IMG/VR virus record: IMGVR_UViG_3300043567_000482
Location: 1-21,284 of that record
DNA length: 21,284 nucleotides
From: a virus
Strand: one strand, 5' to 3'
Every line of letters begins with the position of its first letter. Position 1 is the first letter of the stretch. Made by a program: the position numbers and the translations under genes. This document shows positions 8,425 to 18,314 of the stretch, in pieces. A model generated the notes under the pieces. It saw nothing but the letters and a program-made list of their open reading frames with translations, ran no database searches and was not told the origin of the DNA.

Positions 8425-10029
8425 TTAACCTTTGGTGTTCCTAGCCTGATATTTGTAACCGATACTATTAAGTCCCCACTTTTGTCCAACTGGACCAGTA
8501 AATTCTATTTGAACAGTTCTTGCCAACCCAAGATTGTTTCCAGTTAAAACAATAGAACTAACCGCACCCGCAGCCCATTCCTCACCCCAGTTTCCGTTGT
8601 TCCAAACAAGATAATCAACATTGGGGGTTTGGGTAACATTAAAAGTTCTTCGGTGCTGACCCTCTCCTTCAGCAAAATCGTGATAAACTTTTACAGCGAT
8701 ACTGGTGGAAGATATAGTTTCTTTAACAACGAAATCAGGACGGCGCCACATCTTCTTTTGAACATAGTTACCACCATCCTGCCACTTAGTTTTATAATAA
8801 CTCGCAAACGAAACATCAGTTGCTTCTGTCCTATCTGAATTTTCTTCATACAAATCAACAATAATAACTCTAGGCAAAGTAGGGTGCATCATAAGCCGAT
8901 AATCGTTATCGGCGTTATCTGTCCACTCGCAACCAGAAACCAAACCCTTATCATCCTGATGTCTAAACAAAGTGTAAGAACCATTATTGATTGACGGGTC
9001 AAAAACAAAATTTGTTGTAGAATTAGATTCAGTACCAGAAGAAGTAGTTGAATACGGCAAAGACAACCAAATTCGTTGACCAACCCAAGACAAAGAAATA
9101 GATTCTATATTAGAATTATTAACATAATTCGCATCAAAAATTGGTTTAATGTTTTCAAACAAATACTCTAAAGAAGAACCGTTATAAAAATATATTCCCT
9201 GTTTACGAACATAAAAGAAAATACCTTTTTCCGTTACCGCAACATGCCTTTTGCTGTCAACGCCAAGGGTTGTTGATAATTCAACAACCTGAAAATTGGC
9301 TGTACTGTAACCAAACAAAACATAAATAGCGTTAGGTTTAAAAATAACTAAGTTACCAGAAACAACAGCCAAAGCAGTTATGCCCTCGCCACCACCCTGA
9401 ATATCAATATAGTCATCTTCATCCCACGAAGCAGGACCATTCTCAATAGACCATCTCAACCTGTTGGGGTAAGAAACAGAATCCTCATTTGTTGAGGCAA
9501 CAAACATTTTGTTTGCGTGAACAATAATGTGGTCAGATTTAGGTATATGTGTTTGGGTGGAAACATTGGTCTGCCAATGACCATGAGCATTAGCGGTTAA
9601 AGCGGTAGCATATGTGTCCGTAGTTTCCCACTTGTAACCAACACTTGAAGAACCGTTAACAATATATAATGTTTTACCCCATTGAGCCACATCCGCACCC
9701 TTGCCAGAAGAACAAGTAATATCGTTACCAGATGAATACTGTAAAGTGGAAAAAGAATCAGAAGTGCAACGATACAACTTTGTTGCTGTAGCCAACATCA
9801 AAGTTGGCGTGCCACCATAAAAAGGAACTAACCTTTTAGGTGCCCAAGTACCAGAAATAGCAGTACCATTCAAACTGCGTTGACCACCCCTAGAGAATAC
9901 TCCACCACGAGGGTCAATTTCCACATTTAACATATCAGGAGATTCGTTATCTTTTAACTGAAATTGGTCCGCACGAAAGTTAAGTCCGCCAGTAAAATCT
10001 TTAATTTCACGAACCTTAACTTTAGCCAT
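8425..10029 (-). CDS. Tail nozzle / stabilisation-like protein, 534 residues
   Basis: A longer frame opens at 10071, but the true start is most likely the ATG at 10029-10027, which shares one base with the upstream TAA (TAATG) and follows AAAAGAAAA. The product starts MAKVKVREIKDFTGGLNFRA, followed by D-N-E-S-P-D-x-L-N-V-E-I-D-P-R-G-G-V. This opening (GGLN, then D-x-E-x-x-x-x-x-N-v-x) is characteristic of podovirus tail tubular B / stabilisation-type proteins. The rest is rich in aromatic residues, Ser/Thr and short beta patterns consistent with a beta-propeller-like fold. It follows the adaptor-like gene, the same order as tail tubular A then B in T7-like phages. The role is to form the short tail nozzle below the adaptor. 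The assignment rests on the opening motif and gene order. Confidence 0.65.
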   Translation of the reverse strand: MAKVKVREIKDFTGGLNFRADQFQLKDNESPDMLNVEIDPRGGVFSRGGQRSLNGTAISGTWAPKRLVPFYGGTPTLMLATATKLYRCTSDSFSTLQYSSGNDITCSSGKGADVAQWGKTLYIVNGSSSVGYKWETTDTYATALTANAHGHWQTNVSTQTHIPKSDHIIVHANKMFVASTNEDSVSYPNRLRWSIENGPASWDEDDYIDIQGGGEGITALAVVSGNLVIFKPNAIYVLFGYSTANFQVVELSTTLGVDSKRHVAVTEKGIFFYVRKQGIYFYNGSSLEYLFENIKPIFDANYVNNSNIESISLSWVGQRIWLSLPYSTTSSGTESNSTTNFVFDPSINNGSYTLFRHQDDKGLVSGCEWTDNADNDYRLMMHPTLPRVIIVDLYEENSDRTEATDVSFASYYKTKWQDGGNYVQKKMWRRPDFVVKETISSTSIAVKVYHDFAEGEGQHRRTFNVTQTPNVDYLVWNNGNWGEEWAAGAVSSIVLTGNNLGLARTVQIEFTGPVGQKWGLNSIGYKYQARNTKG

Positions 10030-10745
10030 TACTGATTTTCTTTTAGATTCTGACCCAGACGAGTCATCCAACCATTAAAGGTTGGACGGCGCTTAGTTTG
10101 ACCAGCAGACAACACCATATGCGCATGGCTGGAAGGCTTAGAAATGTTTTTAGTAGCAAGGACAACAGCCTCATCAAAAGACCTCTTATACTCCGCAGCC
10201 ATAACAGTGTCCTCAAGACGCTGATAAATACGGCTACAAGCGTAATAAACTAAAGCAAAATGTAAGTTGGCACTAGCATCAACAGCATCACCCTCAGTAA
10301 TCCAATCCTCAGGTTCACGATAACCACGAACCTTTAAAGTGCGAACATTATTGGGCTTAGGAAACAAATGAATTTTGCCTTCCCAAATGGCATAAAACAA
10401 AGGGTCACCAGAAGTATCATATGCGCCAACATAAGTTGTCTCAGCCATATCAAAAGGAACCATATCCAAACTTAAACCAATACCAGATTCATCTATGACG
10501 GAAACAATCTGGCTCATAGGGTCGGCAGTAAAAGCACTAATAGTGTACGCCCGTTGCTCGGCAACGGTATTAAAAGTAAAAGACTTTTCTAGGAAAACCC
10601 AACGCTTTTCCAAATCCAAAATACGGTAATAGCCATCACGCAAATAAAGATTTAGCAACGAATCTGGCAAATCTTCAGTATCCAAATCGGTAATATCACG
10701 GACAGTGCTACGCAATGCAGAAGCGGTCATAGTTTGATAAGCCAT
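10029..10745 (-). CDS. Head-to-tail adaptor-like protein (tail tubular A-like), 238 residues
   Basis: The start ATG is preceded by AAGGAG at good spacing. The product is helical at the N-terminus (LRSTVRDITDLDTEDLPDSL, then LNLYLRDGYYRILDLEKRW), with a central beta part containing FYAIWEGKIHLFPKPNN and LKVRGYREPEDW. It ends with a long helix (HFALVYYACSRIYQRLEDTV) that carries basic residues. This arrangement of an N-terminal helix pair, a beta insertion with y-x-i-w-g-x-i-x-l-f-P-x-P, then a C-terminal helix is typical of phage adaptors that sit between portal and nozzle. It is followed with a one-base overlap by the nozzle-like gene, as tail tubular A is followed by B in T7. It would act in the virion at the connector. 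Confidence 0.65.
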   Translation of the reverse strand: MAYQTMTASALRSTVRDITDLDTEDLPDSLLNLYLRDGYYRILDLEKRWVFLEKSFTFNTVAEQRAYTISAFTADPMSQIVSVIDESGIGLSLDMVPFDMAETTYVGAYDTSGDPLFYAIWEGKIHLFPKPNNVRTLKVRGYREPEDWITEGDAVDASANLHFALVYYACSRIYQRLEDTVMAAEYKRSFDEAVVLATKNISKPSSHAHMVLSAGQTKRRPTFNGWMTRLGQNLKENQ

Positions 10746-10747
10746 AA

Positions 10748-10996
10748 CTACTCCTTATCTTTCATTGTTTCAGAAATTTGCTCAATGCTTTTAGCCTGCT
10801 TCAAATGCCCAGCACACAGTTCTTGTCCACGCACCTTATTGGCACCACAAGTATCATCATTACCTGAACACTTATCACCACGACCCACATAAGGCGCGCT
10901 GGCTGTAGCCAAGCGTGCATCATTAGTGGCGGCAAGACGAACATCAGAAACAGGTTTACCATAAAACGCATACGCTGGACGAGAATTTTGTGCCAT
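10748..10996 (-). CDS. 82-residue protein with C-x6-C-x10-C-x2-H metal-site motif
   Basis: The N-terminus is YAFYGKPVSDVR with repeated Ala/Arg. From residue 39 there is G-R-G-D-K-C-S-G-N-D-D-T-C, then R-G-Q-E-L-C-A-G-H-L. Cys43, Cys50, Cys61 and His64 form a C-x6-C-x10-C-x2-H pattern, well suited to one structural zinc. The C-terminus is helical and charged (SIEQISETMKDKE). I recall similar short C-C-C-H proteins in phages of Actinobacteria but cannot name a family with certainty. It lies between the 226-residue protein and the adaptor-like gene, inside the virion-assembly block, so a small assembly or virion role is likely. The ribosome site is weak. Confidence 0.65.
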   Translation of the reverse strand: MAQNSRPAYAFYGKPVSDVRLAATNDARLATASAPYVGRGDKCSGNDDTCGANKVRGQELCAGHLKQAKSIEQISETMKDKE

Positions 10997-10998
10997 AA

Positions 10999-11679
10999 CT
11001 AATTACCTAATTTCCCTATAATATTTTTTAAAGACTTAATACCTTTGGAACCACCCTTAATTGTTGCTTTAGCAATTTTAGTGCCAAACAAATCAGCAAC
11101 AGCAGAAGCCATGTCTCCCTTGGAAGCCTGACCAGTTAAAACATCTTCCCAGTCGTTAGCAAAAGATGCCAACAAATTGTTTTTCCTACCAGCACCATCA
11201 TTACCCATACCATTACCACGAAAAGCGGAAGCAGGACCCAACGGCGAAAGCAAAAACTTTGGGTCAAACTTTATGTTAGGAGTAATAGCATCCTTAATAG
11301 TTCTAACAAGCCAAGGATTTAATGTTCCACCAACCATACCCAAAGCGTTCATGTTAGCACTCATTTCAGCAGCCATAGGATTCAAAACACCTTTGCCACC
11401 TATTGCTGGTGGTGCCCCAAATTTTGTTCTAGCATCATAAGCACTAGCAATACTTTGCTTATCTAAATATTTGGCGTACTCTTGCAAAGCCTTCATACCA
11501 GTAAAAGTTTTACCATCCTTATCGGTATACTCGGCAGCAGATTTATCTTTAAACCTTTGTTGAATACTCCAAGGGTCGGTAACTTTAGGTGTTCCAGCGG
11601 AAGGAGAGGGAGGTGGGACCTCCCGCTGGAACGGAACTTGTTTGGGTTTGGTGCCCTGAGGTTTAGTAAACCTTGGCAT
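10999..11679 (-). CDS. 226-residue basic protein with proline-rich N-terminus, unknown virion-block gene
   Basis: Residues 1-35 are basic and proline-rich (QREVPPPSPSAGTPK). A polar helical stretch follows (about 38-85), then a Gly/Met/Ala-rich centre (GGKGVLNPMAAEMSANMNAL). The C-terminus contains WEDVL at 177-181 and the basic amphipathic segment KIAKATIKGGSKGIKSLKNI at 201-220. That last segment resembles the IAK-x-x-x-K-G segments near the N-termini of the 164- and 168-residue neighbours, but here it is at the C-terminus. No enzyme motif or membrane helix is visible. It is probably a head-associated or ejected protein, from its place between capsid and adaptor genes. The first 90 bases contain a strong inverted repeat (11591-11632). 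Confidence 0.6.
   Translation of the reverse strand: MPRFTKPQGTKPKQVPFQREVPPPSPSAGTPKVTDPWSIQQRFKDKSAAEYTDKDGKTFTGMKALQEYAKYLDKQSIASAYDARTKFGAPPAIGGKGVLNPMAAEMSANMNALGMVGGTLNPWLVRTIKDAITPNIKFDPKFLLSPLGPASAFRGNGMGNDGAGRKNNLLASFANDWEDVLTGQASKGDMASAVADLFGTKIAKATIKGGSKGIKSLKNIIGKLGN
11591..11632 (-). other. GC-rich hairpin inside the start of the 226-residue gene
   Basis: The outer arms GTTCCAGC / GCTGGAAC (11591-11598 and 11625-11632) are 8 of 8 complementary. The inner arms GGGAGGT / ACCTCCC (11608-11614 and 11618-11624) form 7 more pairs over a 3-base loop, with 9 unpaired bases on one side. The structure lies 47-89 bases after the start codon and encodes the proline-rich stretch. There is no U-run after it, so it is not a standard terminator. 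It could slow or regulate early elongation, or be a by-product of Pro/Gly codons. Confidence 0.5.
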
Positions 11680-11682
11680 AAA

Positions 11683-13158
11683 TTATTTCTTTTCTAAAAC
11701 TAGTTTGCCATCTTTGTCACGAACCCATTTACGACCCTTAAGTTGTGATTTAGGAAGTTCTGCTGGAATAAATTCTGTTGAATAACCTTCACCAGCCCTA
11801 GTTGTAAAACCTTTACCATATTTTTTTTCCAACATAGCAATTCGTTCTGCTTCTCGTGCCGCTTTAGAAGCCTTGGTTGATTCTGCCGCTTTTTCAACAC
11901 GAGCAATATCTTGAGGTGTCTGCGCTTTACCAGTAATTTTCGGTACACCCTTAAGCAATTCCAAATACTTTTCTTTGGTAATAGCACCACGACCATAATC
12001 TTTGGTAATTTTTTCTAAAGCCTGTTTGGCAGCAGGACTCTTTGATTCCGCTGCCGCCCTCTTGGCTCCTTCAATAATGTTCTTTTCTTGCGCGGACAAC
12101 AACTTGGCACCAGTACCATCATCCGTAACATTTTTTGATTTAGATTTACTAGTAACAGTTTGGTCAACATCCTCATAAACATAAGGTTTGCCATCCGCTG
12201 TTTTCAACTTAGGAACTCTAACTTCTTTACCGTCACGAATAATTGTTTCGTAAACAGTTTTGCCATTTTCGTCTTTAACTTGTTCCAAAGAATCTACCTC
12301 TTTTGCTTTAAACTTCTTATCAGCAGTTATACGCTTAGCCCGTTCAGCAGCAGTCTCATACTGAGGAACCTGCCTACCACCAATTTCTTTAAAGATTTGC
12401 TCACCCTCAGCGTTTTTAATTGGATACAAAGTTTTGTCATCCAAAACAGACATCGCTTTATCTCTTGCACTTCCAGCACCCTCACGAATAGCCTTTTTGT
12501 CCAAAGCATCCAAACCAGCCCTAGCACCAGACATCTTAGCCTTCTCTGGTGTCATAGCCTTAAGGTTTGTTACACGAGTGGTTAAACCTTGTTCAGCAGA
12601 TTTTGCTATTTGCTGGAACTGTTTGCCAACTTCAATAATTTCTTCTGCGATAAGTTTATCTAATTCATTTTGGGTAAATTTTTTGCCAGCAGCAGTAGCC
12701 TCTTCAACTTTTTTGGCAACACGCTTTTCGGCAACCTGTTCAATTTTGTTGGTAGTAGCCAAATCCATTTTAGCAAAAGTTGCATCCAACTGTTTTTCAA
12801 ATCCTTTTTCAGCCAAACGAGTTTTACCACTCTCAGAAAAAACTCCTTCAACAATTTTTTCATCCCTTTTAATAAACTCATCAGCGTTAGCCAACCCTCT
12901 TTCAGCCCTAGAAAGCATAGACTTTTCTGCTTGAACAGCCTGATTAGCCTTGTTGGCAGCCTTATTGGCTGCCTTCTGAGCAGACTTATCAAGAATACCA
13001 GAAACCTTAGGTGCAGCATCAGCAACAGCAGCCTTGGTTACAGCAGCCGCTTCGTCCCCGCCACCACGAGCAGCCTTAATAGCGGCTTCAATAACATCAT
13101 CGGTTTTGCCCAACTCTTTTAATGCCTTTTTTAAAAGGTCTTCCCAAGGTAAAGCCAT
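11683..13158 (-). CDS. 491-residue Ala/Lys/Glu-rich coiled-coil protein, unknown virion-block gene
   Basis: The ATG has AAGGAAG nine bases upstream. Residues 1-45 (MALPWEDLLKKALKELGKTD, then D-V-I-E-A-A-I-K-A-A-R-G-G-G-D-E-A) align without gaps with the N-terminus of the upstream 168-residue protein, including G17, D20, I23, K28 and GGxDEA at 32-37. Residues about 55-220 are continuous charged helix. Two related segments of beta character follow: 247-270 (IKNAEGEQIF...VPQYETA) and 294-321 (VKDENGKTVY...VPKLKTA), a likely internal duplication. More helix spans about 355-445, and the end has RKWVRDKDGKLVLEKK. There is no recognised family. A packaged head protein or an assembly factor fits the context. 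Composition is typical of podovirus internal proteins, although the gene lies before the adaptor rather than after it. Confidence 0.6.
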   Translation of the reverse strand: MALPWEDLLKKALKELGKTDDVIEAAIKAARGGGDEAAAVTKAAVADAAPKVSGILDKSAQKAANKAANKANQAVQAEKSMLSRAERGLANADEFIKRDEKIVEGVFSESGKTRLAEKGFEKQLDATFAKMDLATTNKIEQVAEKRVAKKVEEATAAGKKFTQNELDKLIAEEIIEVGKQFQQIAKSAEQGLTTRVTNLKAMTPEKAKMSGARAGLDALDKKAIREGAGSARDKAMSVLDDKTLYPIKNAEGEQIFKEIGGRQVPQYETAAERAKRITADKKFKAKEVDSLEQVKDENGKTVYETIIRDGKEVRVPKLKTADGKPYVYEDVDQTVTSKSKSKNVTDDGTGAKLLSAQEKNIIEGAKRAAAESKSPAAKQALEKITKDYGRGAITKEKYLELLKGVPKITGKAQTPQDIARVEKAAESTKASKAAREAERIAMLEKKYGKGFTTRAGEGYSTEFIPAELPKSQLKGRKWVRDKDGKLVLEKK

Positions 13159-13160
13159 AG

Positions 13161-13667
13161 TTATCTTCCTTCGTTTTTCTTTTTAATCATCTCTTTGTAT
13201 TCACGCTGTTTCCTCAACGCCTCCGCCCGAGCCTCGGGCGTACGGGTAGCAGCATGAGCAGCCTTGTTTTCTGCTTTTTCTGCCGCCTTTTTTGCACGAC
13301 CAGCCTCAGTTAACTTTTCAGTATTCTTAGCGTGGACAAAGCGGTTGTACGCAGTTTTAACTTGTGCCGCGTCCATTTCATCAAAGGTAGATGGCTCAAT
13401 AAAATCAGAATACTTAAAGTTTTCAAAAGCAATAGAATTATACTCTGGCTTAACGAGTTTTGGTTTAGTTATTTTGGTTCTCGGCAAACCTTCGTTTGCC
13501 TGAACCAGTTTAGGTGCCGACTTTGTTTCGTCAAGATTTTTTAAAACAGGTGTAACAGCCTCGTCTGTGCCACCCATCAAACCTTTAACAATTTTGGCAA
13601 TGCTAACATCGTCCAAACCGTTATCAACAAGATTTTTTACAATCTTGCCAATATCAAGTGGGTCCAT
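13161..13667 (-). CDS. 168-residue basic protein, tandem relative of the 164-residue protein
   Basis: The N-terminus MDPLDIGKIVKNLVDNGLDD is followed by VSIAKIVKGLMGGTDEA (21-37), then NEGLPR at 58-63, KPEYNS at 73-78 and Y-S-D-F-I nearby. The C-terminal third is a Lys/Ala/Arg-rich helix (AKKAAEKAENKAAHAATRTP). GLPR occupies exactly residues 60-63 here and in the protein encoded just upstream, and IAK-x-x-K-G plus the KP-x-x-Y segment also recur, pointing to a tandem duplication. The GGxDEA at 32-37 matches the downstream 491-residue protein at the same positions. The start shares one base with the upstream stop (TAATG) with no strong ribosome site, so translation is coupled. Function unknown; presumed head-associated. 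Confidence 0.6.
   Translation of the reverse strand: MDPLDIGKIVKNLVDNGLDDVSIAKIVKGLMGGTDEAVTPVLKNLDETKSAPKLVQANEGLPRTKITKPKLVKPEYNSIAFENFKYSDFIEPSTFDEMDAAQVKTAYNRFVHAKNTEKLTEAGRAKKAAEKAENKAAHAATRTPEARAEALRKQREYKEMIKKKNEGR
13224..13240 (-). other. Hairpin near the 3' end of the 168-residue gene
   Basis: The perfect 7-base arms CGCCCGA and TCGGGCG enclose a 3-base loop. It lies in the coding region for T-P-E-A-R-A-E-A, about 60 bases before the stop, and is much richer in GC than its surroundings. A few 7-base hairpins are expected by chance in a window this size, so significance is modest. Confidence 0.3.
13483..13500 (-). other. Hairpin over the GLPR codons of the 168-residue gene
   Basis: The perfect arms GGCAAAC and GTTTGCC (7 pairs) enclose a 4-base loop that reads GAAG on the coding strand. 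The arms code for the A-N-E-G-L-P region. The related codons of the 164-residue gene (13985-13998) form a smaller hairpin, CCAAA / TTTGG over CGAA, at the equivalent protein position. Confidence 0.35.
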
Positions 13668-14161
13668 TATCGTCTGCCTGAACGAACCTTCTTAGGGTCC
13701 ATTTTGAGGAACTTTTTAACAAAATCTGCCTCTGGACCAGCAGCAACAAAACCATACCTTTTCTTGTCCTTGTTAACAATTGCTTCTGCTTTGCGAGCAG
13801 AGTTGTATTCCGTTGCACGCCTTTTGCGTGCAGCATCATACTTGTTAACATCCTTCAAAGATTTATCTTTAATCTTTGCAGCACGAATAGCATCCTTATA
13901 TTCCGAGGTGCCCTTCATATATGTTTCGCTATAATTCTTTGGCTTAGAACTAATTACTAATTTTTGTCTTACACGAGGCAAACCAAATTCGTTTGGTACA
14001 ATTACTTGTTTTGATTTTGGGGGTGTACGAGGTGGTATTTTGTTTACTGTAACCGATTTAGGTTTGTTAAATAACCGAGCAGCAGACTTAGCGCCCTTAA
14101 TAACGCCTTTAGCGATATCATCAATACCTTGTGGTTGCAACTCAATAGCAGGTTTACGCAT
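13667..14161 (-). CDS. 164-residue basic protein, first of the duplicated unknown family
   Basis: A GTG at 14218 opens the same frame, but it lies in a long hairpin. The ATG at 14161-14159, preceded by AAAGGATAATGTA, is the better start and gives MRKPAIELQPQGIDDIAKGV. Residues 13-24 (IDDIAKGVIKGA) form a short amphipathic basic helix. A Pro/Lys-rich linker (IPPRTPPKSK) precedes NEFGLPR at 57-63 and KPKNYSET at 73-80. The rest is highly basic and helical and ends KKVRSGRR. There is no enzyme motif. Strong positive charge suggests contact with DNA or with acidic capsid surfaces. It is the first gene after the decoration hairpin and may be a head-internal or ejected protein (inference). Confidence 0.6.
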   Translation of the reverse strand: MRKPAIELQPQGIDDIAKGVIKGAKSAARLFNKPKSVTVNKIPPRTPPKSKQVIVPNEFGLPRVRQKLVISSKPKNYSETYMKGTSEYKDAIRAAKIKDKSLKDVNKYDAARKRRATEYNSARKAEAIVNKDKKRYGFVAAGPEADFVKKFLKMDPKKVRSGRR

Positions 14162-14231: not shown

Positions 14232-14651
14232 TTATGCTCGGTAAATTGAAACCGTGTTTGCGGCAGTGAACACTGCAACATAGGTAGCAGATGACGCTGC
14301 TGCAACCGAAAAGGTTGCTGCAACACCAACAAGCGTTACACCAGAAGCACCAGCAGTTACCACGATTGGGTGGGTTGCTGCGGCGGCATTGACAACGGTG
14401 AATTGGAAACTTGAACCAACACCCTCATCTGTGAACGCTGCACCAAGTTCCGCACCAGTTGGTGTGGTCAAGGTACGGCTTGCCGTTGGGGTCATTGTGT
14501 ACAGTGTGCGTGCTGCACCAGCAAGAGTCGCTGCTGTTTGTACGGTTGCTGCGTCAGTTGCTGCAACTACTGTTACCAACTCTTCCTTGGCTACCCAAGC
14601 GGCGAGTCGTGTACGGTCAATTGCACCATTGTCGTTTGATTTTAGTGGCAT
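14232..14651 (-). CDS. Ala/Thr/Val-rich 139-residue beta protein, capsid decoration candidate
   Basis: The ATG follows AAAGGAAAAAAA. After a polar N-terminal helix (TRLAAWVAKEEL, 14-25) the product is almost entirely small residues and beta-branched amino acids: VVAATDAATVQTAATLAGAA, then strands such as SSFQFTVVNA, HPIVVTAGASGVTLVG and ATYVAVFTA. This is typical of head-decoration or head-fibre proteins. It lies immediately after the major capsid gene and is bracketed by two strong hairpins, an arrangement that suggests very high expression. Its base composition is GC-richer than the downstream genes. It most likely binds the outside of the capsid and stabilises it; a short tail-associated protein is the alternative. 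No named family is recognised. Confidence 0.6.
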   Translation of the reverse strand: MPLKSNDNGAIDRTRLAAWVAKEELVTVVAATDAATVQTAATLAGAARTLYTMTPTASRTLTTPTGAELGAAFTDEGVGSSFQFTVVNAAAATHPIVVTAGASGVTLVGVAATFSVAAASSATYVAVFTAANTVSIYRA

Positions 14652-14724: not shown

Positions 14725-15663
14725 CTAGGCGGTCTTAGCCGTCAGTTTGCCCTGCTTGGAACGGTTACGGCAAGTCAAGTTACCGTAGCACATGATAAGC
14801 GCATAACGAGCATCCAAGTCTTCTGGACGAACGAAAGCAGTTTGGGTAAACCATTTACCAGAGTGTCCAACCAAGGTCAGATACTTGCTGTTAATGAAGA
14901 ACATTGTTCCTGCTGGAGCAGCGGCATCATAAACAACTGGAGCAGCCTTGAACAACAAGTTCTGGAAACCAGAATCCGCTGTCTTGGTGTCGGTGTAACG
15001 CAACTGTGGTTGCAACAAACCTTCATACTTTTCAAACAAGGTTTGGCTTGTAAGAACCATGTCTGGGTGGTCGTTACCAACAGAAATGCTGTTGTATGCG
15101 GTAGCCATTTGAGCAAGAGTCAACGCTGTTGCGGTGTTCTCCTCGTATGAACGCCAGTATTCGTTGCCAGCAGTAGCGGAGTTAATTCCACCAACAGTGT
15201 TACCTGATTCAATCAAGTTTCCAAGACCGTTCCAGTCCTTGCTACTGTTTCCAGTACCATCGGAATAGAACATTGCGTTGAAACCTTCACGCATAGACTC
15301 TTCAGCCTGCATGATTTTGGCTTCCAACAGGTTAATGATTTCCTGTTCGCCGTTGTTCTTGGCTTCTTCAATACCGCTAATTGCGATAGAAGCAGCGTAC
15401 TGCTTCCATTCGTATTCGGCAGCCGTGATGCCAGTTTGTGCGGTCAAAGCAATTGAATCGTAACCTGAGTACGAAGCAACCGTGGTGTTCTGACCGTAGA
15501 TGAGTGGTTCAACAATTTTCGTGCCACCGTTAAGCATACGAATACGACCTTTTTGCATAAGGTGGTTCGTAAGAACGCGGTCCGAAAATACGTTGTCCGT
15601 GAGTTGGTCACGGTAATTTGCGAGAGTTGTTGATAGCAACAAATCAAAGTTTGGGTTAGACAT
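14725..15663 (-). CDS. Major capsid protein (HK97-fold type)
   Basis: 312 residues; the ATG follows AAAAGGAAAATA. The product begins MSNPNFDLLLSTTLANYRDQ. It then has the features expected of HK97-fold capsid proteins: an N-terminal arm with V-F-S-D-R-V-L-T-N-H-L, a beta region around GGTKIVEPLIYG (46-57), a long spine helix rich in Glu/Gln (SGIEEAKNNGEQEIINLLEA), then YSDG-T-G-N and N-G-L-G-N-L-I, and a C-terminal domain with HPDMVLTSQTLFEKYEG and GTMFFINSKYLTL. It assembles into the shell around the scaffold and holds the DNA. It follows the scaffold gene and is followed by a strong hairpin and the decoration candidate. Codons look more GC-rich than in neighbours, consistent with high expression. 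No protease gene is seen. Confidence 0.88.
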   Translation of the reverse strand: MSNPNFDLLLSTTLANYRDQLTDNVFSDRVLTNHLMQKGRIRMLNGGTKIVEPLIYGQNTTVASYSGYDSIALTAQTGITAAEYEWKQYAASIAISGIEEAKNNGEQEIINLLEAKIMQAEESMREGFNAMFYSDGTGNSSKDWNGLGNLIESGNTVGGINSATAGNEYWRSYEENTATALTLAQMATAYNSISVGNDHPDMVLTSQTLFEKYEGLLQPQLRYTDTKTADSGFQNLLFKAAPVVYDAAAPAGTMFFINSKYLTLVGHSGKWFTQTAFVRPEDLDARYALIMCYGNLTCRNRSKQGKLTAKTA

Positions 15664-15697: not shown

Positions 15698-16498
15698 TTA
15701 GTTTGCACCCATTTGACGCTTAGCCTCTGCCCAAGCCTCAGCAACAGAAGTAATAGGGGTAAAAGTTTCACTAGTTGTAGTGGCGGTAGCGGATGAGCCA
15801 CCATTAACCACACTTGCTACCCGCTTAGACTGCATAACAGATTTCTCTATTTCTGCTCGTCTTTGCTGACCAAGTTCTTCTAGTTCTCTTTGAGCCATCA
15901 TTTTATCAAATGCTAACTGCTTGTAAGTGCCTTCCAAATCGGTTGTTCCACGCTGGATTGCCAGCGTCACAACTTCTTTGACATCAAAATCACCGTACTT
16001 AGATTGCAAACCCTGAATTTCACGCTCAATTAATTGTTGATTCTGGGCTTCCTCAAACTGTGCTATTCGTTTATCTAGTTCACGGTACTTTTGTTCCGTG
16101 GGGTCTAGATACTCTGGTTCTACATCTTGAACCATTTCCGCAGCAGCCTTTCGGCTGATACCATAATGGGAAGAAAGCATATCAATAGTTTTGGCAGGGT
16201 CAGACTCCAAAGCCGCTGAAAGCGCTGTAGCAAATTGAACTTCTTCTCTTTGCTGACTTAACTCTTGCGTTTTTCGGGTATAATCTGCTTGGCGTTGATA
16301 ACCAGCAATAGCCTCAGATAAAGGAACTTGCAATTCCTCACCATCAAGTTTAATTGGTACACGATAATTCGCGTACTCATCTAATTCCAAGATGGGTGTA
16401 TCGGGTGCTTCGGTATAATAATCGTTATATTCGTCTGCGAATTCAGTTGACCCAGTATCGGGTTCCATTTCGGCAAACTCTGCGAGTTCCTCACTCAT
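15698..16498 (-). CDS. Capsid scaffolding protein
   Basis: 266 residues; the ATG is preceded by AGGAG. The N-terminus is very acidic (MSEELAEFAEMEPDTGSTEF and onward). At about 50-82 it has the segment LDGEELQVPLSEAIAGYQRQ followed by A-D-Y-T-R-K-T-Q-E-L. This v-x-l-x-E-a-i-x-G-Y-x-R-q-x-D-Y-T-r-K-t pattern is familiar from scaffolds of podovirus-like environmental phages. A Gln/Glu/Arg-rich coiled coil fills about 125-225, and a short Ser/Thr-rich linker leads to a C-terminal helix (TSVAEAWAEAKRQMGAN) likely to bind the capsid protein. The order portal, scaffold, capsid is standard. It directs shell assembly and then leaves the head. Confidence 0.8.
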   Translation of the reverse strand: MSEELAEFAEMEPDTGSTEFADEYNDYYTEAPDTPILELDEYANYRVPIKLDGEELQVPLSEAIAGYQRQADYTRKTQELSQQREEVQFATALSAALESDPAKTIDMLSSHYGISRKAAAEMVQDVEPEYLDPTEQKYRELDKRIAQFEEAQNQQLIEREIQGLQSKYGDFDVKEVVTLAIQRGTTDLEGTYKQLAFDKMMAQRELEELGQQRRAEIEKSVMQSKRVASVVNGGSSATATTTSETFTPITSVAEAWAEAKRQMGAN

Positions 16499-16546: not shown

Positions 16547-16556
16547 GCGTTCCCTA
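16547..16556 (-). repeat. TAGGGAACGC motif at the portal stop codon (copy 2)
   Basis: On the coding strand the portal gene ends in TAG followed by GGAACGC, giving TAGGGAACGC. The same ten bases occur at the end of the terminase gene (18760-18769), again with the stop TAG as their first three bases. Similarity continues for several more bases (14 of 17 positions agree) and both copies run into an AT-rich stretch (TATATA here). It is a candidate regulatory element of unknown type. Confidence 0.35.
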
Positions 16557-18314
16557 AGCAGGTGGCGCACCCTGTCCTTGCTGTAGCATCGCAACAATCT
16601 CAGGTGGCAAAGATGACTCAGGACCCGCTGGAGAGCCTCCAGCGGCTTGTGGAGCCGTCTGAGGGGATTGTGGTGGCATACCCATCTCACCCTCAGCAGG
16701 GACAGGAGGGGGTGGTGATTGTAGGAACTCGTCAGGGTTTTTGACCCCGAAACCAAACTGTAGCACATATGCCGCAAGTTTTTGCATATTAACAATTCCA
16801 GCACCAGCAAATGGTGACATAGCATCAACCATTTGCAAAGCCATCTGGCGTTTAAAAGATTCGTTATGTGGTTGAGTTGAACCAGCAGCAACTTCAAAGT
16901 CAAAGTCACCAGCCAAATAATCTCGGTCAAAAGTAACCCACATTGGTTCACCGTCTTTGCCAGTTACACGAGCAACTTGTTCACCAGTCATATACTGTTG
17001 AGCCAAAGCCATCATTCTACGACCAACTTCAGCAATAGCCTGTTCAACTACAGCCAACTTATCTGAGGTGCGAGCGTTAGCAGCATCTTGTAGCAAAGAC
17101 GACTCTGTTGCTGTACGGCGAATTTCAGAAACAGCACCACGCTGAAACTCTGACACACCAGAAATACGGTCAATGTCACCAATAATCATATTGGACTGAT
17201 TATAAAACTCTGGTGGGTTAATTACTGCTGGGAAAGCAGTAACAACACCAGCGATTGGTTCATCAGACATAACAGGAACCATAACATTATCGTCATCTGA
17301 TTCTAGGGCTGAACGACCAAGTTGGTCAAAAGCAGATTCCTTATACAGATATTTGCGACTAAACTTTTTACGATGATTCATCATCTGGCTACGGGTTTCA
17401 TTAAGTTCCCGTTGCAAAGGTTCAATTGATTCTAGGTCACCAATAGGGTAAAACATGTCTGGAACATCATAGTTGCGCAACATAACAAATGGTTGCCCAA
17501 ATGAATAAGGCATTTTGGTTGGTTTGACCAGAAACTGGTCTGATGTTTCACAAAAAATAGACATGCTTCCGTTAGCAATGTCGTAATATTCCCAAATTTC
17601 TGCGTAACCCATATTTTTGTCGTGTACCTTTTTACGGCTTGGGTCATCAGAGTATTTACTTACGGCAACAACCTGAACTTTTTCTCGTGCCGACTTGATG
17701 TAACGCTTATCGTTTTTGATTTCGTTGATTGGTCGGCGGATACGCTGAGCAATCCATTTGATGTCCCTCATACTTGTGGCATCTGGGTCAACAAAAACAT
17801 CGTGAACAGATACCCGTTCAGCAAACGGTGTGTCCTCACGAATAACGGTATTTGTTGTTGACTCTCCGCCTTCAACATCATCCGAATATTCTTCATCGGT
17901 GTCAATTGATTCTTCTTCAACGAAACGGTAACCTACTTTAATCCAACCATGACCAAAAGAAAGCATGTCTTTAACTGAACGCCTGAACTCTGAGCGAACA
18001 TCCCGTTTTTTCCACCAATAGTTTACAACAGCCTCAGCAATAACAGCGTTGGCAGCGTTTTTTGAATCTACAGCATTGACAGTTATCTTAGGGTAGTTTA
18101 CAGATATGCTTGGTGAAATAACATTGATAGTGGAGAAAGCAATGTTGACCAACATTTGGTCCTCAGCCTTGTAGTCGTCAAAATGACGACCACGATACAT
18201 GTCTCTTAGCCGTTGCCAAGTCCCATCATAGCCATCGTCTTTGCGCCATTTACGACTGGCTTCAACACTCATTTTCATTTTCTTCAAATAGTCGGCAGAT
18301 GATTTCCTAGCCAT
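16554..18314 (-). CDS. Portal protein
   Basis: 586 residues. The ATG shares one base with the preceding TAA (TAATG) and follows GGAAAAGAGAA. The N-terminal part (MARKSSADYLKKMKMSVEAS, then DGTWQRLRDMYRG and LVNIAFSTINVISPSISVNY) is the conserved opening of a large portal family of podovirus-like phages. The centre includes HDVFVDPDATSMRDIKWIAQ. The stem/crown part has the helical PLQRELNETRSQMMNHRKKF typical of portals, with RISGVSEFQRGAVSEIRRTA downstream. The C-terminal 60 residues are Pro/Gly/Gln-rich and probably flexible. The length fits the family. It forms the dodecameric vertex through which DNA is packed by the terminase and to which the adaptor attaches. A 9-pair hairpin (16625-16645) lies in its 3' end. 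Confidence 0.87.
   Translation of the reverse strand: MARKSSADYLKKMKMSVEASRKWRKDDGYDGTWQRLRDMYRGRHFDDYKAEDQMLVNIAFSTINVISPSISVNYPKITVNAVDSKNAANAVIAEAVVNYWWKKRDVRSEFRRSVKDMLSFGHGWIKVGYRFVEEESIDTDEEYSDDVEGGESTTNTVIREDTPFAERVSVHDVFVDPDATSMRDIKWIAQRIRRPINEIKNDKRYIKSAREKVQVVAVSKYSDDPSRKKVHDKNMGYAEIWEYYDIANGSMSIFCETSDQFLVKPTKMPYSFGQPFVMLRNYDVPDMFYPIGDLESIEPLQRELNETRSQMMNHRKKFSRKYLYKESAFDQLGRSALESDDDNVMVPVMSDEPIAGVVTAFPAVINPPEFYNQSNMIIGDIDRISGVSEFQRGAVSEIRRTATESSLLQDAANARTSDKLAVVEQAIAEVGRRMMALAQQYMTGEQVARVTGKDGEPMWVTFDRDYLAGDFDFEVAAGSTQPHNESFKRQMALQMVDAMSPFAGAGIVNMQKLAAYVLQFGFGVKNPDEFLQSPPPPVPAEGEMGMPPQSPQTAPQAAGGSPAGPESSLPPEIVAMLQQGQGAPPA
16625..16645 (-). other. Nine-pair GC-rich hairpin in the 3' end of the portal gene
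   Basis: The perfect arms CCGCTGGAG and CTCCAGCGG (9 pairs) enclose a 3-base loop, about 70 bases before the portal stop. It encodes part of the Gly/Ala/Pro-rich tail. Part of the arm (CCGCTGGA) recurs in the hairpin at 11591-11632. There is no U-run, so a terminator is unlikely; message stability or attenuation between portal and scaffold is possible. Confidence 0.4.

Follow-up and report, generated by a model that had tools for sequence, protein, structure and literature searches.

A short amphipathic N-terminal segment recurs on otherwise unlike proteins in a hypervariable island of the head operon of a podophage-like virus

Background

What purpose might be served by a short N-terminal segment that recurs, in neighbouring genes of a phage head operon, on proteins that are otherwise unlike one another? 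The question is raised by a stretch of viral DNA (here termed 'the window', and analysed over its whole length of 21,284 bases) that corresponds to IMG/VR record IMGVR_UViG_3300043567_000482, is classed as linear, and is probably a fragment of an uncultivated podophage-like genome. All of its virion genes lie on the minus strand, in a block that encodes a terminase, a P22/SU10-type portal, a scaffold, the major capsid protein and a 139-residue protein, then proteins of 164, 168, 491 and 226 residues, and then an 82-residue Cys/His protein, a head-tail adaptor, tail proteins and a 1762-residue protein. An initial annotation of this DNA had described the 164-, 168- and 491-residue proteins as sharing an N-terminal module, placed a related segment in the 226-residue protein, and suggested that a short amphipathic segment had been duplicated onto different bodies, for example as a signal for loading cargo proteins into the procapsid.

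The coordinates, lengths and quoted residues given for that cluster were correct. The four reading frames are consecutive on the minus strand and separated by intergenic gaps of -1 to 3 bases, and because the same spacing continues from the 164-residue gene to the adaptor gene, these genes are assigned to one late operon. The features concerned are listed below, with the shared N-terminal segment termed the 'tag', the stretch between capsid and adaptor genes termed the 'island', and relatives of the window phage designated by L or G numbers.

16554..18314, minus strand: portal protein of the P22/SU10 type (PHROG/Pfam profile searches)
15698..16498, minus strand: acidic scaffolding protein, -0.094 per residue (phrog_3927, E 7.4e-11)
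14725..15663, minus strand: major capsid protein, the fixed upstream border of the island (phrog_9953, E 4.7e-76)
14232..14651, minus strand: 139-residue Ala/Thr-rich protein adjoining the capsid gene, found in 18 of 82 islands (sequence, island comparison) and, from its position, probably a capsid decoration protein
13667..14161, minus strand: basic protein of 164 residues (net charge +0.165 per residue), its tag being RKPAIELQPQGIDDIAKGVIKGAK at residues 2-25 (homologues in L236 and L012)
14087..14158, minus strand: tag segment of the 164-residue protein, residues 2-25 (sequence; profile match with other tagged families)
13161..13667, minus strand: 168-residue protein with a two-helix tag, PLDIGKIVKNLV plus NGLDDVSIAKIVKG (homologues in L008 and L011; profile comparison)
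13557..13664, minus strand: tag segment of the 168-residue protein, residues 2-37 (an in-frame deletion in L236 starts after the tag)
11683..13158, minus strand: 491-residue, mainly helical protein with tag LPWEDLLKKALKELG followed by KTDDVIEAAIKAA (family consensus MARAWDDILKAVLKRLG)
13048..13155, minus strand: tag segment of the 491-residue protein, residues 2-37 (alignment, profile comparison)
10999..11679, minus strand: 226-residue island protein, tag not detected (no profile match)
10748..10996, minus strand: 82-residue Cys/His protein, the conserved right border, in 78 of 82 islands (island comparison)
10029..10745, minus strand: head-tail adaptor of 238 residues, the fixed downstream border of the island (PHROG 399 match)

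The adaptor assignment is further supported by a match to Pfam SU10_adaptor in the equivalent protein set of a relative.

A hypervariable island between the capsid and adaptor genes

Searching IMG/VR for the capsid protein yielded more than 500 relatives, from which 82 distinct capsid-to-adaptor stretches were retained once duplicates had been removed. At the first 80 loci the capsid protein has 85-100% identity to the query, and the islands differ almost completely. Across the 82 islands, size ranges from 0.3 to 4.0 kb and content from one to nine reading frames, the smallest, in several relatives, consisting of a Cys/His gene of 70-82 residues alone. With the Cys/His and decoration-like proteins left out, these islands encode 221 distinct proteins that fall into 55 families by similarity of their bodies. 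Most families carry a net charge of +0.15 to +0.3 per residue, a range that includes the 164-residue protein; the 168- and 491-residue proteins are weakly basic, at +0.04. Like the ip locus of T4, the locus is hypervariable and dispensable, and its genomic place differs from that in T4. A comparable basic island was absent from the more distant capsid relatives (40-45% identity and below), including the Mx8, Ruegeria, Stenotrophomonas and Bradyrhizobium phages and the spring phage MW202803.

Several occupants of the island show features of their own. The 226-residue protein belongs to a fast-evolving family, which is the usual occupant of this slot. In 77 of 78 copies of the 82-residue protein (window 10748-10996, minus strand) a Cys is followed by D[TS]C and further on by C-x-G-H, and the protein is probably metal-binding; its gene always stands directly before that of the adaptor, and is kept where the remainder of the island has been lost. 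C-terminal ends of the form [KR]GA[KR] were found on 13 of the 221 island proteins, in seven families (for example in L039, L042 and L199), when 0.16 were expected by shuffling, and represent a possible second shared terminal signal. A further shared N-terminus, MPxxYxILDNG or MPVKYSILSSHADA, occurs on basic island proteins that carry no DD tag (for example in L073, L030, L040 and L135), as does a small N-terminus of the GKEFPYTAKGKAAA type. In a near-identical relative (L235:8001-9404, corresponding to window 11683-13158), a 23-residue in-frame deletion lies within the helical part of the 491-residue protein.

A search for the host in a genome collection returned only distant or probably mis-binned contigs. 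One contig labelled as a Euryarchaeota MAG (L114, PAYF01000019.1) bears a capsid gene 56% identical to that of the window phage, and is itself probably a mis-binned phage contig.

The shared N-terminal tag

The tags of the three window proteins read RKPAIELQPQGIDDIAKGVIKG (164 residues), PLDIGKIVKNLVDNGLDDVSIAKIVKG (168 residues) and LPWEDLLKKALKELGKTDDVIEAAIKAA (491 residues). Local alignment of the N-terminal 60 residues from the window alone gave p ~0.01 for the 168/491 pair and 0.05-0.09 for the other two pairs, and since these values were too weak to decide the matter, the case was carried to relatives. Homologues of the 164-residue protein measure 165 residues in L236 and 110 residues in L012, and homologues of the 168-residue protein start KLPFDDIIKAMVEAGTSVDDIAKTL (L008) and PPIEDVIKALVNAG (L011). 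The N-terminal profile-profile comparison that the initial annotation had proposed was carried out with hhalign on 45-residue profiles, each set against 25 column-shuffled controls, and yielded scores of 24.2 for the 164/491 pair (shuffled maximum 12.7), 19.1 for 164/168 (13.1) and 16.9 for 168/491 (10.3). The same procedure linked these three families and three further tagged families in every pair, all above shuffled controls; because one of the further profiles had been picked by its DD pattern, the pairs drawn from the window families offer the cleaner comparison. The claim of a module common to the N-termini of these three proteins was thereby borne out, and a blind motif search, described below, agrees with it.

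The precise extent of that module proved to be different from what had been described. The tetrapeptide GLPR does occupy residues 60-63 in both small window proteins, but is not conserved in their homologues: the closest homologue of the 164-residue protein (in L236) reads GLYRP, a homologue of the 168-residue protein (in L006) reads GLPS, and in the 168-homologue of L236 the entire GLPR linker is missing. The KPxxY segment said to follow it reads KP-x-Y in the 168-residue protein, rather than KP-x-x-Y, and is likewise not conserved. The N-terminal IAKxxxKG and IAKxxKG pieces are present. A gap-free register of the 168- and 491-residue proteins up to residue 37 was found in the window, where 12 of 37 residues are shared, but fails in other genomes, across which the conserved part of the two N-termini is the first DD-type helix. 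Finally, the C-terminal KIAKATIKGG of the 226-residue protein, which had been put forward as a related segment, is not kept in relatives, and the N-terminal profile of that family matched none of the other families in hhalign, its scores not exceeding those of shuffles.

When the island proteins were considered together, the tag took the form (G)-[IL]-D-D-[ILV]-x-[KR]-x-h-h-x-K, located within residues 1-32 at the start of an amphipathic helix. The pattern D-[DE]-[ILVWFTM] was present within those residues in 89 of 221 island proteins (approximately 40%, against 8.0 expected by shuffling), and further in was found in 17 of 201 proteins at residues 33-64 and in 8 of 158 at residues 65-96. A blind EM motif search, given one N-terminus per body family, converged on the DD-type helix start with a log-likelihood of 215, as against 154 +/- 8 for shuffled N-termini; for 38 longer proteins it reached 191 with their N-termini and 128-166 with their own internal segments. 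The 164-residue protein scored 23.7 bits against the EM motif. Alignment of 60 distinct tags on the DD pair gave G-[IL]-D-D-[ILV]-[IAGV]-[KR]-x-[ILV]-[AVLI]-K-x-[ALV], of which a common form with a longer lead reads [KR]KPAIE(S/A)RVGHxxGIDD. The helical hydrophobic moment of the aligned tags was twice that of shuffles; calculated from residues not used in selection it was 0.498 (shuffles 0.294 +/- 0.018), and with one tag per family 0.465 against 0.280, a value reached by none of 2000 shuffles.

In 42 of the 82 islands no protein meets the tag definition, and since the proteins encoded there are basic as well, the tag is not required for the island as such. Tag carriage tracks phage lineage, with at least 7 changes on the capsid tree against 27 when shuffled, and for that reason a correlation with scaffold residues cannot identify a docking partner. 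Associations of tag presence with residues of the scaffold, portal, adaptor or capsid were set aside as confounded by lineage.

Placement of tagged genes and constraint on the tag

Across ten near-complete relatives, a strict form of the tag is carried by 14 of 65 genes in the zone immediately downstream of the capsid gene, as against 5 of the 514 genes located elsewhere (Fisher p ~1e-10). One of those five encodes an 88-residue tagged protein directly before the portal gene, and the remaining four look like chance matches. The 88-residue protein (MASKKRGIDDIVRPIKG..., L244:2748-3014, plus strand, in relative G004) lies outside the main island and still within the head operon. The extended tag was also written as a DNA pattern, which, run against 2.9 million viral contigs, matched 36 stretches, all from the clade of the window phage and, wherever the flanks were visible, all with the capsid or 139-residue gene on one side and the adaptor gene on the other. 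In another relative, a 67-residue protein starting MATQKRKPAIQLSNDD (L250:15710-15910, plus strand) is encoded near opposite-strand genes for DUF5872-like basic proteins, far from the island, and marks a possible second site for such genes.

Where one island encodes two tagged neighbours, these often show synonymous differences at 3-8 of 14 codons, with their residues kept, which indicates that the tags are not recent DNA copies of each other; no rate ratio is claimed for these codons, because the search pattern fixes most of the residues. Gene order also varies, being 168-164-491 in L236 and 164-168-491 in the window. In the 168-homologue of L236 the linker between tag and body, GLPR included, has been lost exactly and in frame, joining the module to the body. 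The possibility that this homologue is a broken gene was ruled out, as it is intact, has a GTG start and bears an in-frame deletion. The blind motif, its positional enrichment, the profile comparisons, the amphipathicity and the near-confinement to the island together uphold the earlier suggestion that different bodies carry a common short amphipathic segment at their N-terminus.

Searches for known domains and homologues

No Pfam or PHROG family matched the 164-, 168-, 491- or 226-residue protein, and searches of 84 island proteins with Pfam, PADLOC and PHROG returned no significant or convincing enzymatic, defence or counter-defence domain. With respect to ejection-protein families of the P22 type, there was no PHROG or Pfam match among the four window proteins and none that was convincing among the 84 island proteins. 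Searches of 50,697 phage records returned nothing relevant by tblastn with four tagged proteins (those of 164, 168 and 491 residues and one more), and no annotated record that matched the 7.5 kb region at the DNA level by blastn; in the open-access literature no description of the island or the tag was found. AlphaFold models of the 491- and 226-residue proteins were of low confidence (mean pLDDT 60 and 43, respectively).

No prohead protease was found between the portal, scaffold and capsid genes of the window, nor among the 25 Pfam/PHROG families listed for two relatives. In the early operon of a phage of approximately 37 kb, a 194-residue protein (L243:4352-4933, minus strand; also in G011) appears to correspond to Pfam Proteasome, with a match to the ATP-dependent protease family phrog_4871.

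A possible capsid-targeting role and its alternatives

The reading that we favour, with somewhat more belief than doubt, is that the tag acts as a capsid-targeting signal, by which variable cargo (probably DNA-binding or host-acting proteins) would be loaded into the procapsid; the procapsid-loading signal given as an example in the initial annotation is thus the reading that fits best, and it has counterparts demonstrated by experiment in the T4 internal proteins and in DarB of phage P1. At the start of the tag an acidic helix cap (G-I/L-D-D in most cases) would lead into an amphipathic helix that has Ile, Leu or Val on one face and Lys or Arg opposite, and this helix would bind a common site within the procapsid during assembly, most likely on the acidic scaffolding protein. 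Any body fused to the tag would then be co-assembled into the head, where basic bodies may remain with the packaged DNA, be ejected together with it, and act on DNA compaction, host take-over or host defence. If only the tag must be kept, then bodies, gene number and gene order would be expected to turn over rapidly, giving rise to a hypervariable island of the kind found between the capsid and adaptor genes. Against this proposal stand the untagged islands, the weak basicity of the 168- and 491-residue proteins, and the lack of any convincing enzymatic or anti-defence domain in the island proteins.

A less likely alternative is that the island proteins all belong to a single paralogous family of DNA-binding proteins inside the head, diverging fast, in which the N-terminal helix would be the conserved core (for oligomerisation or DNA contact), the bodies would be disordered Lys/Ala-rich tails whose differences reflect sequence drift, and the proteins would serve as DNA condensers or counter-ions, with no addressing involved. 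The extreme basicity of most island proteins, their low-complexity bodies and the tandem arrangement of their genes are all in keeping with such a family, as are the excess of [KR]GA[KR] C-termini and the likeness of certain other C-terminal segments (88% over 35 residues for a pair of proteins from L061 and L071). Body lengths, however, range from approximately 70 to more than 450 residues, some bodies (the 491 family) are well defined and not disordered, the 168- and 491-residue proteins are not strongly basic, and the tag is also present on the protein that precedes the portal gene.

We regard it as improbable that the helix targets the host membrane or another intracellular site, on late accessory proteins that never enter the virion. 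An amphipathic helix of 10-14 residues would suit that role, membrane binding and protein binding being indistinguishable by sequence; against it, the motif starts with a DD pair, early host-acting genes are without the tag, and tagged genes lie inside the head block and almost nowhere else in the genome. Still less credible, and disfavoured here, is the notion that the shared N-termini are footprints of DNA-level recombination, used for gene shuffling and devoid of a selected protein function: the island is indeed mosaic, with a variable gene order, but tags of the same island differ at many synonymous positions while their residues are kept, and distant families have only the residue pattern in common, as found by profile comparison. 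Chance likeness of Lys/Ala-rich sequences, to which the weak pairwise scores within the window and the unconserved GLPR match might have pointed, is refuted by the controls, in that the signal is reproduced neither by shuffles that preserve composition nor by internal segments or column-shuffled profiles.

Returning to capsid targeting, a broader and distinctly tentative suggestion is that a widespread lineage of small podophage-like viruses independently evolved a modular capsid-targeting code, in which a short and probably uncleaved amphipathic GIDDI helix, borne by dozens of unrelated families and possibly operating without a prohead protease, loads fast-changing proteins into a head of small size. 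Should the tag prove to be a capsid address, sequence alone would suffice to list the proteins that this phage group delivers to its hosts, much as the internal proteins of T4 were found by their leader, and the list would supply many candidate effectors and DNA-packing proteins without known domains. The combination of a leader with variable cargo would also have arisen outside the T4-like phages, in genomes of approximately 40 kb, and a portable tag this short, suited to a small head, could help to load proteins into particles.

Comparison with known systems

P22-type phages possess internal proteins (gp7, gp16 and gp20) that are ejected with the DNA (PMC8402733). The window phage resembles them in its P22-like portal, but its island proteins, unlike gp7, gp16 and gp20, match no known ejection-protein family; its own ejection proteins are likely to be the 399- and 1762-residue products encoded further downstream. 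In the giant phages SPN3US and phiKZ, many head-internal ejection proteins have N-terminal parts that are thought to target the prohead (PMC5694885), a proposed role like that of the tag; those propeptides often exceed 100 residues and are cut by a prohead protease, in genomes of more than 200 kb (PMC5694885). A parallel in position and length is provided by DarB of phage P1, in which a signal within the 30 N-terminal residues carries a reporter into the head (PMC9024508); the island tag may be able to do likewise. DarB is a single protein of 250 kDa, and no common N-terminal consensus was found among the P1 Dar proteins (PMC9024508), in contrast to the widely shared consensus of the island tag.

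The internal proteins of T4 are small and basic, with N-terminal leaders of 10-19 residues that target the head (PMC9026906); their homology is confined to the leader, and defence nucleases are among their targets of inhibition (PMC12373910). Used as a positive control, they behaved accordingly in the alignment test: the N-termini of IpII and IpIII, and of IpI and IpIII, were alike (p below 0.001), and the body of IpIII was unlike both others (p 0.94 with IpII and 0.75 with IpI), with net charges of +0.02 to +0.05 per residue. Like IpI, IpII and IpIII of the polymorphic T-even ip locus, the island proteins have a short N-terminal segment common to unrelated bodies, and the two loci also have in common small basic proteins, variable non-essential genes, and the substitution of basic proteins between related phages (PMC9026906, PMC12373910). 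The two differ in that the window tag is an amphipathic helix of the GIDDI type and the T4 leader reads MKTYQEF (MKTYQEFIAE type), and in nine comparisons the window tags did not align with T4 leaders better than shuffles did (p 0.04-0.66). They also belong to different types of phage; the island has its place within the head operon, flanked by the genes for capsid and adaptor, and encodes up to four tagged proteins per phage, drawn from many more families. A protease of the gp21 type, which removes the T4 leader, was not seen in the head block, and there is accordingly no sign that the tag is removed. Not a member of the T4 family by sequence, the tag system may nonetheless work in the way that the T4 system does.
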